Part shown: in pieces, positions 10,864 to 40,102 of the stretch
How the letters are laid out: every line of letters begins with the position of its first letter
Position numbering within the stretch: the first letter of the stretch is position 1
Origin: Alienimonas chondri
GTDB lineage: Bacteria > Planctomycetota > Planctomycetia > Planctomycetales > Planctomycetaceae
Length of the DNA stretch: 41,457 bases
Reading direction: 5' to 3'
NCBI RefSeq assembly: GCF_013036045.1
Contig: NZ_WTPX01000028.1
Span: 1-41,457, forward strand
Translations under genes and position numbers: made by a program
The notes under the pieces: model-generated
What the model was told of the DNA's origin: nothing
Database searches by the model: none
The model's input: only the letters and a program-made list of their open reading frames with translations

Positions 10864-11296
10864 CGCCGCCGTCGCCGCCTCGCCCCCGGCCGATTCGCTC
10901 CACGCCGACCCCTTTGAAAGCGGCGCCGCGCCGCCCGAAGCGGACGCCGAAGAACCGAAACGTCGCACGCCCACGGAGGCGGACCGCATCGCCGCCGCGG
11001 TGCGGGCACTGAAGACCCGCGGCACGCCGCATCAGGTCCGCGCTCGCCTGATCGCCGCCGGTTGCGACCCGGATCAGGCGGACAAGATCGTCAACCGGGC
11101 CCGGACCCAGTTGCTGACCGACAGCCGTCGGCTCGGCGCCCGGATCGCGGAGATAACCGTGATCGTGATGTGCGGATCCTTGCTGTTGCTGTTCCTGCCC
11201 GGCGGGGAGGTGTTTTGCGGCATCGTCCAGGTGGTCGGCATGATCGTGCTGGCCGTCGCGGCGCTGGTCTGGCTCAGCGGCGTCGGCGGCGACTGA
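10856..11296 (+). CDS. Small two-helix membrane protein of unknown function
   Basis: A 146-residue protein I do not recognise. An acidic, Pro/Ala-rich N-terminus is followed by a charged helical region (about 40-85; DRIAAAVRALKTRGTPHQVRARLIAAG...) and two predicted membrane helices at the C-terminus (about 101-115, ITVIVMCGSLLLLFL, and about 122-140, IVQVVGMIVLAVAALVWL). The soluble part may bind a partner or nucleic acid, but nothing specific is visible. It overlaps the LRR gene by 8 bp and its stop overlaps the glycosylase start by one base (TGATG), so the three genes form one translational unit. That tight coupling supports it being real. Confidence 0.8.
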   Translation: MSDAAVAASPPADSLHADPFESGAAPPEADAEEPKRRTPTEADRIAAAVRALKTRGTPHQVRARLIAAGCDPDQADKIVNRARTQLLTDSRRLGARIAEITVIVMCGSLLLLFLPGGEVFCGIVQVVGMIVLAVAALVWLSGVGGD

Positions 11297-12186
11297 TGCC
11301 CGAAGGTCACAAGGTTCATCACCTCGCCGCCCAGCACACGGCCGCGTTCGGCGGGCAGGCGTTGGCAGTGACGAGCCCGCAGGGGCGGTTTCATGCCGGG
11401 GCGAGGGCCGTGGATGGGCGAGAGTTGGGATCGGTCACGGCGGTCGGCAAGCATCTGTTCTACTGTTTCCGCGACCCCGGCGGGGCGACCGCCGTTCGCG
11501 GCGGCGACCCGGACGAGCCGCGGGTGGTGCATATCCACCTCGGACGCTACGGGAAGTTCACGCCGCTGACGTCTCCCGTACCGGAAGCGGTCGGCTCCGT
11601 GCGCGTGCGGATGACGCGCTGTGACGGCGGAGCCGCCCCGCTCCCGCCCATCCCCGGCCAGAAGAACGTGGGACCGGTGACCGGCTTCGATTTGCGCGGC
11701 CCGACCGCCTGCGAGACGATTACCCCGAACGACGTGCGGGCAATCCGCGACCGGCTCGGTCCCGATCCGCTCGCCTTGCGAACGGGAGATAAAGCGACGG
11801 TCCGCGCCGCCTTCGCGAAATCGAAGAAGCCGGCCGGGGCGCTGATCATGGATCAACCGGTCGTCTCCGGCGTGGGCAATATCTTCCGGGCCGAGATCTT
11901 CTACGAACTCAAGATGGATCCGACCCGCCCGGCGAGGGACTTGAGCGACGAAGAGTTTGACGCCCTCTGGCAGGTGACGACGCGACAGATGAGGACCGGA
12001 CTGAAGTACGGCAAGATCGTGACCCGCACCGCCCGCGAGGCCGGTCGGCCGCGGGAGGCGCTGAACGGCCGCGATCGTTTCCGCATCTATCGGCAGGAGC
12101 GCTGCCCGACATGTGGCGACGAGACCTACAAATGGGACCTCGGCGGCCGGGCGATGTACGCCTGCCAGCGGTGCCAGGGGATATAG
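11296..12186 (+). CDS. nei: Fpg/Nei family DNA glycosylase/AP lyase (endonuclease VIII-like)
   Basis: A 296-residue base-excision repair enzyme. It begins MPEGHKVHHLA, giving the catalytic proline P2 and E3 after removal of Met, with lysine K52 in VGKHLFY at the conserved position. The helix-two-turn-helix block is SGVGNIFRAEIFYELKMDP, and the C-terminus is a four-cysteine zinc finger (CPTC...CQRC). Substrates of the family are oxidised pyrimidines or purines; the MPEGH start resembles the Nei branch more than classical MutM (MPELPE). The ATG overlaps the previous stop (TGATG). The stop is six bases upstream of the REP hairpin at 12192, which may help terminate the transcript. Confidence 0.88.
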   Translation: MPEGHKVHHLAAQHTAAFGGQALAVTSPQGRFHAGARAVDGRELGSVTAVGKHLFYCFRDPGGATAVRGGDPDEPRVVHIHLGRYGKFTPLTSPVPEAVGSVRVRMTRCDGGAAPLPPIPGQKNVGPVTGFDLRGPTACETITPNDVRAIRDRLGPDPLALRTGDKATVRAAFAKSKKPAGALIMDQPVVSGVGNIFRAEIFYELKMDPTRPARDLSDEEFDALWQVTTRQMRTGLKYGKIVTRTAREAGRPREALNGRDRFRIYRQERCPTCGDETYKWDLGGRAMYACQRCQGI

Positions 12187-12191
12187 TGGTC

Positions 12192-12216
12192 CGTAGTGGC
12201 AGGCTTCAGCCTGCCC
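12192..12216 (+). repeat. Left REP hairpin bracketing the RAYT gene
   Basis: A 25-bp sequence whose exact inverted copy lies at 12926-12950. It starts (after C12192) with the tetranucleotide GTAG followed by TG-free hairpin GGCAGGC-TTCA-GCCTGCC (7-bp perfect stem, 4-base loop). A GTAG/GGAG tetranucleotide beside a short hairpin is the hallmark of REP sequences recognised by RAYT transposases. A further CCACTAC at 12239-12245 could pair with the GTAGTGG at 12193-12199 to form a larger structure over the RAYT start region. Confidence 0.85.
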
Positions 12217-12232
12217 AGTCGTGCGGCAGGCG

Positions 12233-12769
12233 ATGCAAACCACTACTGTCGACCTCGTGAGATATCCCGTCGACAGCCGTCCCATTGAGAGGAACGACGC
12301 TCTAATTGCGGAGCGTGTCCGCCGCGGTTTGCCGTGGCACGCCCCGCCTCACCCCGATTGCGAGGGCGGGTGGTTCCTCATTACGGCGGCCTGTTATCGA
12401 CATCGGCGTCATTTCTCCGCGCCTGCGGAATTGACGGCTCTAACGCGCCGCCTGCAAGAAGCTGTCGCGAATGCGGGTTGGAACTGCGGCGGATGGGTCG
12501 TGTTGACGAACCATTATCACTTGATGGTAAATGTGCCGTCGCTCGAACCGGTCGGGGCGGCGCTGGGACGGGTTCACGGACGGTCCGCCCGATATGCCAA
12601 CGAGCGCGACGGGACGCCAGGCCGTAGGGTTTGGTACCGCTACTGCGACCGGAGAATACGCAGCGAGCGACACTTCGCCACCTGCCTGCATTATCTCTTT
12701 CTCAATCCGGTCAAGCATAGGTATGTCGACGATCCGCAAGAGTGGCGATGGTCCAGTTTACACGAGTGA
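12233..12769 (+). CDS. REP-associated tyrosine transposase (RAYT), possibly C-terminally truncated
   Basis: A Y1-type single-strand transposase of the RAYT group, 178 residues from ATG 12233 (a GTG at 12221 would add four). The HUH-like motif is NHYHLMV, and the candidate catalytic tyrosine lies in CLHYLFLNPVKHRYV, followed by the characteristic EWRWSSLHE. The N-terminal WHAPPH and FLITAACYRHR blocks also fit. It is bracketed by perfect inverted REP hairpins (12192-12216 and 12926-12950), as expected for an enzyme acting on REP/REPIN DNA. The TGA at 12767 is followed in the same frame by 27 sense codons (to TGA 12851) encoding a charged tail ending EFGRGWDD. This suggests a nonsense mutation that removed the C-terminus. 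Inserted between convergent nei and ftr. Confidence 0.85.
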   Translation: MQTTTVDLVRYPVDSRPIERNDALIAERVRRGLPWHAPPHPDCEGGWFLITAACYRHRRHFSAPAELTALTRRLQEAVANAGWNCGGWVVLTNHYHLMVNVPSLEPVGAALGRVHGRSARYANERDGTPGRRVWYRYCDRRIRSERHFATCLHYLFLNPVKHRYVDDPQEWRWSSLHE

Positions 12770-12853
12770 TTGACGGAGAACGGCGAAGAGGCCTTCCACG
12801 ATCTGCAATCGGAATACCCGCTGCGAGAATTCGGCCGCGGATGGGATGATTGA
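12770..12853 (+). pseudogene. Detached in-frame C-terminal segment of the RAYT
   Basis: Immediately after the RAYT TGA the same frame stays open for 27 codons and ends at TGA 12851-12853. The product would begin LTENGEEAFHDLQ and end REFGRGWDD, a plausible soluble C-terminus. Whether homologues carry this tail cannot be checked here; if they do, the gene carries a premature stop or relies on readthrough. Confidence 0.45.
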
Positions 12854-12925
12854 CGCTCGTTCGGATCGATCTGCCTCAAGCGACCGCGTGCGCTTGACTC
12901 TCTGGAACGTTCACTTTGTTCGACG

Positions 12926-12950
12926 GGGCAGGCTGAAGCCTGCCACTACG
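12926..12950 (-). repeat. Right REP hairpin, inverted copy, overlapping the ftr stop codon
   Basis: Exact reverse complement of 12192-12216, so the GTAG end points away from the RAYT and the pair forms a bracket of about 760 bp. Read on the minus strand, the TAG within the GTAG tetranucleotide (12948-12946) is the stop codon of the ftr reading frame. The hairpin can also act as a transcript end for ftr. Confidence 0.85.
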
Positions 12951-13875
12951 AACCGGTCTCCCAAGGCGTCGAGCCTTCAATCAACGGAATAAAGCTCTTC
13001 CCCAGCCGCCCGTTGTAGTTGCCCGCACGGATCAATCGCAGGCCGGGCGTCTCTTTGGCGGCGTCGATGGCGGCGTAGGTGGCGGCGGCGACGCTCTCCA
13101 AATCGCGGCCGTTAATGATGATTTCCTGAATCGATTTCACCCCGTCCGGGACGAGGCTCTTCTCGCCCAGTTTATCTTTTAATGTCGGGCACCACTCCGC
13201 GAAGGTGCTGGCGATCAGGAACTTATAGTTCGACCCCGCTTTGCTGGCCGAGCCTGCAAGGCCGCCCGGGAAGGGCGCGATCACGCCGTCGCACTTCGAC
13301 ACCGCGGCGACCGCGGCGGCGCCGGCGTCGAGGGCGGCGTCGGCCGATTCGCCCAGGAACCAGAGGTTCCCGCCCATCACGCCGTCGCGAAAACCGAAGT
13401 TTCGGTCCATCACGAACTCACCGCCGAGAATGGGTATTACCCAGACGGCGCGGCCGAGGCGTTCGGCTTCGAACTCGTGCCCGTCGCCGAAGTAGGCGAT
13501 CTTTCGGCCCAACGGGATCGACCGCCCGGCGGCGATGTCCTCCGCCATCGGGCTGAACGCCGACGCGGTGGGGCAAGTCAGCACGTTCTGGCTGACGCGC
13601 TTCAACAGCGATTGATAGAGAGCCTCCTCGCGGTCCTTGCGGAAGCGGGGGACGTGAAATTGCAGCACGGCCCCGGGCCGGCCGTCGGGGGTGTCGGCCG
13701 GATCGACGAACGAAGCGACGCCGGCTTCGCAGTCGCACAGAATCGTGCTGCTCGCGTGCCCCGTCGCGTTCGCGCAGGCGTGATCCAGCCAGGTCTTGTC
13801 GCGGGCGGTGACCAGCACCTCCGCGAACAGACTGCGAAAGGCTTCGGCGTAGGTGTCTTCGATCGGGGCGGACAT
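12946..13875 (-). CDS. ftr: Formylmethanofuran:tetrahydromethanopterin formyltransferase
   Basis: A 309-residue homologue of Ftr (FhcD in methylotrophs), which transfers the formyl group between methanofuran and tetrahydromethanopterin in archaeal-type C1 metabolism. Family blocks are clear: IEDTYAEAF at the start, TILCDCEAGV, GGEFVMDRNFGFRDGVMGGNLWF, PFPGGLAGSASKAGSNYKFL, and the C-terminal IRAGNYNGRLGKSFIPL. The pathway is known from methanogens, aerobic methylotrophs and planctomycetes, where it likely oxidises or detoxifies formaldehyde. No other pathway gene is in the window. The last nine residues (after IPLIE) extend past the usual family end, and the stop codon is supplied by the REP copy at 12926-12950. 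It lies 21 bp downstream of the membrane protein gene on the same strand. Confidence 0.93.
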   Translation of the reverse strand: MSAPIEDTYAEAFRSLFAEVLVTARDKTWLDHACANATGHASSTILCDCEAGVASFVDPADTPDGRPGAVLQFHVPRFRKDREEALYQSLLKRVSQNVLTCPTASAFSPMAEDIAAGRSIPLGRKIAYFGDGHEFEAERLGRAVWVIPILGGEFVMDRNFGFRDGVMGGNLWFLGESADAALDAGAAAVAAVSKCDGVIAPFPGGLAGSASKAGSNYKFLIASTFAEWCPTLKDKLGEKSLVPDGVKSIQEIIINGRDLESVAAATYAAIDAAKETPGLRLIRAGNYNGRLGKSFIPLIEGSTPWETGS

Positions 13876-31105: not shown

Positions 31106-31246
31106 ATTAGTGCGTCCGGCGGATAAGCACGGCGTCCCTCAGTGAGCCCGAAGCGCCAGCGAGGTGGGCGAGTCGTAATCCTCGCTGGCGCTTCGGGCTC
31201 ACTTCGCCTCCAGCGAACGCCAGACTGATCTGGCGGACGCACCAAG
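31106..31246. repeat. Palindromic intergenic element between the DUF1559 copies
   Basis: The core is a perfect 24-bp inverted repeat, arms 31141-31164 and 31180-31203 around a 15-nt loop. It contains GAGCCCGAAGCGCCAGCGAGG on one side. Outer flanks ATTAGTGCGTCCGGCGG... and ...GATCTGGCGGACGCACC are also imperfect inverted repeats, so the whole 140-bp unit is palindromic. Its outer parts recur at 32951-33226 with a different interior. No coding potential. Confidence 0.85.
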
Positions 31247-39976: not shown

Positions 39977-40102
39977 CACGGGCCGGTTTAAAAACTAACC
40001 CGAAGCGTCAGCGAGGGACGCGTCGCGTCCGGCACGTCGGCCTGCGGCCGACGCCCTCGCTAACGCTTCGGGTTGGTACGTCGGTTTTGAAACCGGCTCG
40101 TG
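39977..40102. repeat. Compound palindromic element
   Basis: Outer arms CACGGGCCGGTTT (39977-39989) and AAACCGGCTCGTG (40090-40102) pair at 12 of 13 positions. Middle arms 39997-40017 and 40054-40074 (AACCCGAAGCGTCAGCGAGG type against CCTCGCTAACGCTTCGGGTT) pair at 20 of 21. In the centre CGTCGGCC-TGC-GGCCGACG forms a further hairpin. The CGAAGCG..AGCGAGG core is shared with the element at 31141-31203. Confidence 0.85.

Follow-up and report, generated by a model that had tools for sequence, protein, structure and literature searches.

The window, the 41,457-nucleotide stretch of Alienimonas chondri DNA analysed here, carries a RAYT gene enclosed by a pair of inverted REPs, and the unit sits between convergent genes for an Fpg/Nei-type DNA glycosylase (nei) and ftr/fhcD (Table 1). 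The sequence CGTAGTGGCAGGCTTCAGCCTGCCC at 12192-12216 is the reverse complement of 12926-12950, exact over 25 bp, and a repeat search of the window finds arms of 34 nt that are 94% complementary (12188-12221 and 12921-12954). Folded as single-stranded DNA, either REP gives a 7-bp stem with a 4-nt loop at -8.1 kcal/mol (z -4.07 and -3.61). An earlier note, made from the letters alone, had described exact 25-bp inverted copies of a GTAG-plus-hairpin sequence, with a GGCAGGC/GCCTGCC stem and a TTCA loop, around a transposase gene between convergent nei and ftr, and this anatomy is borne out in every part. The note also took the arrangement to be the one expected of a RAYT, and in the available text of Nunvar 2010 the published arrangement is indeed a RAYT gene enclosed by inverted REPs. 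The right REP overlaps ftr, and its GTAG supplies the ftr stop codon (12946-12948).

Table 1. Features of the RAYT unit and its neighbours in the window
Feature	Position	Strand	Details
Fpg/Nei-type DNA glycosylase (H2TH)	11296..12186	+	Profile matches; 6 nt separate its stop from the left GTAG
Left REP	12193..12215	+	GTAGT, 7-bp stem GGCAGGC/GCCTGCC, TTCA loop; within the exact 25-mer 12192-12216
RAYT ORF	12233..12769	+	ATG start (GTG at 12221 also possible); NCBIfam, alignment, 4ER8 by profile and fold
Untranslated rest of the RAYT frame	12770..12853	+	Conserved C-terminal tail (...EYPLREFGRGWDD); stop 12851-12853
Right REP	12927..12949	-	Identical and inverted; within the exact 25-mer 12926-12950; GTTC outside on the minus strand
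ftr/fhcD	12946..13875	-	Profile matches; TAG stop is the TAG in the right REP's GTAG

The proposal that the transposase gene is a RAYT is upheld by several lines of evidence. The ORF scores 89 bits against NCBIfam REP_Tyr_transpos (cut-off 80). It has no match in Pfam-A at E<=0.001 and falls outside the nine Y1_Tnp matches of its own genome, yet is within the 11 NF047646 matches. Sequence and predicted fold both correspond to TnpA-REP: a profile search of the PDB puts 4ER8 (TnpA-REP) first (E 1.8e-16), followed by ISDra2 TnpA (4e-4), and Foldseek with an AlphaFold model (mean pLDDT 86.2) again ranks 4ER8 at the top (E 7.3e-8; runner-up 1.2e-4). The HUH motif and catalytic tyrosine of Y1 transposases are present as H94-Y95-H96 (HYH) and Y154, numbered from the ATG. 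A single scan found 242 relatives, the best 80 of which were kept and fetched, and in an alignment of 36 sequences (the window protein and 35 of these homologues) all four residues are invariant, contrary to the lack of conservation that the earlier note had named as grounds for doubt. W134, D139 and R143 are invariant as well and may, tentatively, be the counterparts of the region that contacts GTAG in E. coli TnpA-REP, according to the text available, with the spacing off by one residue.

Among known systems, the closest description is that of TnpA-REP subclass 2.8 in the accessible text of Quentin et al. 2018 (PMC6006769). The HYH motif, proline-rich N-terminus and GT[AG]G REPs given there are all found in the window unit, and by this description its RAYT fits the subclass. 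The published sample, as given there, holds Cyanobacteria only, with relatives noted in other phyla, and the window copy differs in being truncated. The E. coli TnpA-REP REPtron (PDB 4ER8) is the best profile and fold match and also has GTAG REPs, but the proteins are only about 21% identical, and the E. coli REPs, as far as the source describes them, are longer and have bulges, whereas the window has one REP per side. IS200/IS605 elements (IS608, ISDra2) share the HUH/Y1 fold; they differ in that the window ends are identical and inverted and its protein is nearer TnpA-REP. Rather than several whole-unit copies, as in IS200/IS605, the own genome has one copy with this REP type.

The association of such RAYTs with such hairpins extends across phyla. 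The best 80 of the 242 relatives are largely cyanobacterial and chloroflexal and come from Cyanobacteria, Chloroflexi, Poribacteria, Planctomycetota and others. HYH is kept in 79 of these 80 frames. At 64 of the same 80 loci there are hairpins nearby that are built as GTAGT-stem-TT[CT]A, giving 347 REPs, counts that are not independent because the loci are related; a stricter script, which asks for the same REP start on either side of the gene, finds it at 17 of the 80. Immediately before GTAGT stands GTTC in 120, GTTT in 80 and GCTC in 24 of the 347 (sum 224), and mostly the same tetranucleotides precede GTAGT in the REPs of the own genome. This tetranucleotide may be a candidate cleavage or target site of the RAYT subclass; known TnpA-REPs cut at CT or CA in the available text of PMC8266576.

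The coding frame of the window RAYT is interrupted. An in-frame TGA (12767-12769) closes the ORF ahead of a conserved tail, and among the best 80 of 242 homologues the match reaches query residue 190 or beyond (at least 190) in all 80. In comparison with an intact paralogue on contig C343, the core (138 codons) has a pN/pS of 0.276 and the tail (27 codons) one of 0.285, with synonymous change close to saturation. The tail thus looks as constrained as the core, and the stop is therefore either recent or an assembly error. In the model of an intact homologue the tail forms two short helices with an end of low confidence; the truncated protein may therefore still fold. The stop removes the conserved tail and spares the HUH core and tyrosine, and if it is genuine it has probably left this copy impaired. 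An assembly or sequencing error in an intact gene is a real though rather unlikely possibility. The assembly is in 355 contigs, and constraint on the tail equals that on the core, as an error would have it. Nothing speaks directly against an error, but an earlier in-frame stop, before the end of the match, occurs in 4 of the best 80 of 242 homologues, and a RAYT of Pseudomonas Pf-5 is on record with a stop codon beside 999 REPs (PMC3390384, in the text available).

The earlier note had suggested that a genome search for GTAG and its stem-loop could reveal a dispersed REPIN population, and such a population is present. The exact 23-mer REP core occurs five times in the 5.30-Mb assembly and a reversed-pattern control never, and the repeat is therefore neither confined to the locus nor due to chance. 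At <=3 mismatches the 23-mer has 11 sites in the genome (control 0). The pattern GTAGTGGCNNNCTTCAGNNNGCC at <=2 mismatches gives 16 REPs at nine places (control 2), and at <=1 mismatch the same 16 (control 0). All nine places are inverted pairs, comprising the window unit and eight short REPINs, two of which have a partner REP with a one-base insertion. The <=3-mismatch search adds a tenth place, on contig C57, also an inverted pair. This brings the total to ten places, nine short REPINs and the RAYT unit, where inverted doublets akin to the REPs of the RAYT are found. The eight short REPINs measure 71-104 bp (two ends corrected by eye; C57 left out). Their stems have diverged, and the variants keep pairing, in part through G-T. 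Like the REPINs of Bertels and Rainey 2011, they are inverted pairs dispersed in intergenic sites; they differ in number, with about ten places here as opposed to hundreds, and in combining two stem classes in seven of the nine short REPINs (by eye).

The unit is very probably a REPtron, in which a 2.8-like RAYT is accompanied by its own REP pair, REPINs spread in trans, and the present gene copy is probably impaired. From the E. coli and Stenotrophomonas TnpA-REPs we infer that the RAYT would bind a REP in single-stranded form, by way of GTAG and the stem-loop, that its tyrosine would cleave beside the REP, and that it would rejoin the ends after cleavage. By the same analogy it would act in trans on short REP pairs, of which nine lie elsewhere in the genome. 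It is highly improbable that the unit is instead an active autonomous IS200/IS605-like transposon, moving whole between its two REPs. Identical, inverted ends around an enclosed gene would suit such an element, as would the absence of the unit in G001, the same-genus genome. The interior beside the right hairpin is also common to a short REPIN, which is in keeping with the REPtron reading too; the alignment beats 500 of 500 letter shuffles (for the left hairpin, the score is equalled by 12 of 500). Yet the other three places with exact 23-mers flank short pairs and no RAYT, the one further RAYT of the clade in the genome has different REPs, the RAYT has an in-frame stop, and published REPtrons, in the available text of PMC6006769, seem not to move as units.

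That further RAYT is the intact paralogue on contig C343 (L048:1424-2102), 66% identical to the window RAYT. It has its own perfect inverted REP pair with an unrelated stem, and one dispersed further copy of its REP, degenerate with three mismatches. The pair bears on another suggestion of the earlier note, that perfect identity of the ends points to recent activity or selection. With a perfect pair at C343, few and diverged REPINs, and a nonsense codon in the window gene, end identity alone does not show mobility; the case for recent activity is thus not borne out as worded, and selection on the REP pair is as possible as current mobility. The two RAYTs, whose REPs differ wholly in stem and contrast in number, should be useful for testing RAYT-REP specificity.

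Across 119 genomes, a RAYT match at E<=1e-10 is found in 10 (own included), some of the weaker ones being other RAYT types. The REP pattern at <=1 mismatch is found in nine: the own genome with 16, G012 with 56 and seven with one each, where the control pattern likewise gives single hits in several genomes. The REPs of G012 (L057-L068) have the same form, with stem GGCCGGC, and many are arranged as REPINs. The RAYT behind them was sought, and no HYH-type candidate was found in the 93%-complete G012 assembly. With 56 REPs and no such RAYT in G012, and a RAYT with hardly any REP population at C343, RAYT and REPIN numbers appear uncoupled here. The window copy, possibly inactive, is not necessarily the one that spread the REPINs. 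In G001, the only same-genus genome of the set, neither a RAYT (E<=1e-10) nor REPs (<=1 mismatch) were found, and the RAYT is absent from the gap orthologous to C343. The window unit thus documents an HYH-subclass RAYT with its REPINs, next to a same-genus relative that lacks both.

Some REPs lie at the very ends of host genes. The TAG of GTAG ends four genes, namely ftr and those for a class-I glutamine amidotransferase, a DUF885 protein and a molybdopterin-binding oxidoreductase. Donation of a stop codon was dropped as a novelty, being already stated in the available text of Di Nocera 2013, where GTAG REPs often supply the stop; E. coli REPs near stop codons are also known (PMC12306157, in the part accessible). 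Hairpins at gene 3' ends, four of them supplying the stop, and a sister species in which a different palindrome often occupies the corresponding gap would be in keeping with REPs that chiefly serve the host, as bidirectional terminators or mRNA 3' ends, and flank the RAYT gene by chance. As the main account this is improbable, given the outer GTAG tag, the TTCA/TTTA loop, the pairing with RAYT genes across phyla and the absence in G001. A host role and the REPtron reading are not exclusive, and both can hold.

Comparison with G001 gives the most unusual observation, which is incidental to a unit otherwise of a known kind, a REPtron of a known subclass. An empty site for the window unit was sought there and not found: between nei and ftr, G001 has an extra gene, DapA-like by eye, and a palindromic pair. 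Seven own sites were located in G001, six REPIN places (the window's included) and the C343 RAYT, while C257, C349 and C15 were sought and not located. Three of the gaps are filled by a palindromic pair whose core is CGAAGCGYMAGCGAGG (P): that of C201, where it lies between the extra gene and ftr, and those of C287 and C294. A pair whose core is CGCTTGCGGTTTCGC (Q) fills that of C290. The C351 gap has a small hairpin only, and the C343 gap has no P- or Q-type pair. At C316 the gap is empty of the REPIN and of any palindrome found; by eye, 31 nt lie between the genes in G001, as compared with own flanks of 17+14 nt. A GTTC/GAAC target read from C316 is only suggestive, as the letters match poorly. 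P and Q are uncommon in G001, where 1.70 Mb yields 49 hits to the P motif and 29 to Q, roughly two for each element.

The co-occurrence was assessed over 67 orthologous gaps, with C351 and C343 left out. The G001 counterparts contain a palindromic repeat for 4 of 5 own REPIN gaps, compared with 4 of 56 gaps without an own palindrome (Fisher p 6e-4), and for 9 of 11 own gaps with any palindrome (again vs 4/56; p 8e-7). All seven located sites give 4/7 against the 4/56 control gaps (p 0.0035). These values come from contigs picked for carrying REPINs, with gene calls from a simple ORF script, and from a test devised once the first cases had been seen. Among nine shared gaps, one has the same hairpin in both species and the others differ, one of them with variants of similar form (all by eye). 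Divergent gaps have a palindrome in 0 of 12, in either species. Tentatively, then, unrelated REPIN families with different Y1 transposases might make use of the same slots at gene 3' ends in sister species, a suggestion somewhat more doubtful than not. The transposases may insert at hairpins already present or take their place, or selection may keep the gaps palindromic while families turn over; tolerance of gene-3'-end gaps could account for part of the sharing. No report of slot sharing by unrelated palindromic families was found in the open-access literature. If it holds on whole genomes, slot reuse would bear on insertion-site choice by RAYTs and on REPIN persistence.

Several further palindromic pairs were seen in the two species. 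In G001, a P pair surrounds an ORF for an HVH-type Y1 transposase (L288:7083-7704; NCBIfam matches below cut-off), and the matching gap of the own genome has a different palindromic pair. P repeats also surround the Y1 transposase of contig C224 in the own genome, and judged from these sequences the P family seems to have its own transposase. A Y1 transposase with the Q motif on both sides lies on contig C116 of the own genome (L011, L027). The window itself has two palindromic pairs with the P core, at 31142-31202 and about 39996-40084, and five hits to this motif at <=2 mismatches (0.33 expected). On contig C316 of the own genome, one gene from a REPIN, there is a further GTAG hairpin pair (GTAGGGTCCGC...; L035:778-854), and the corresponding gap in G001 has a Q repeat instead.
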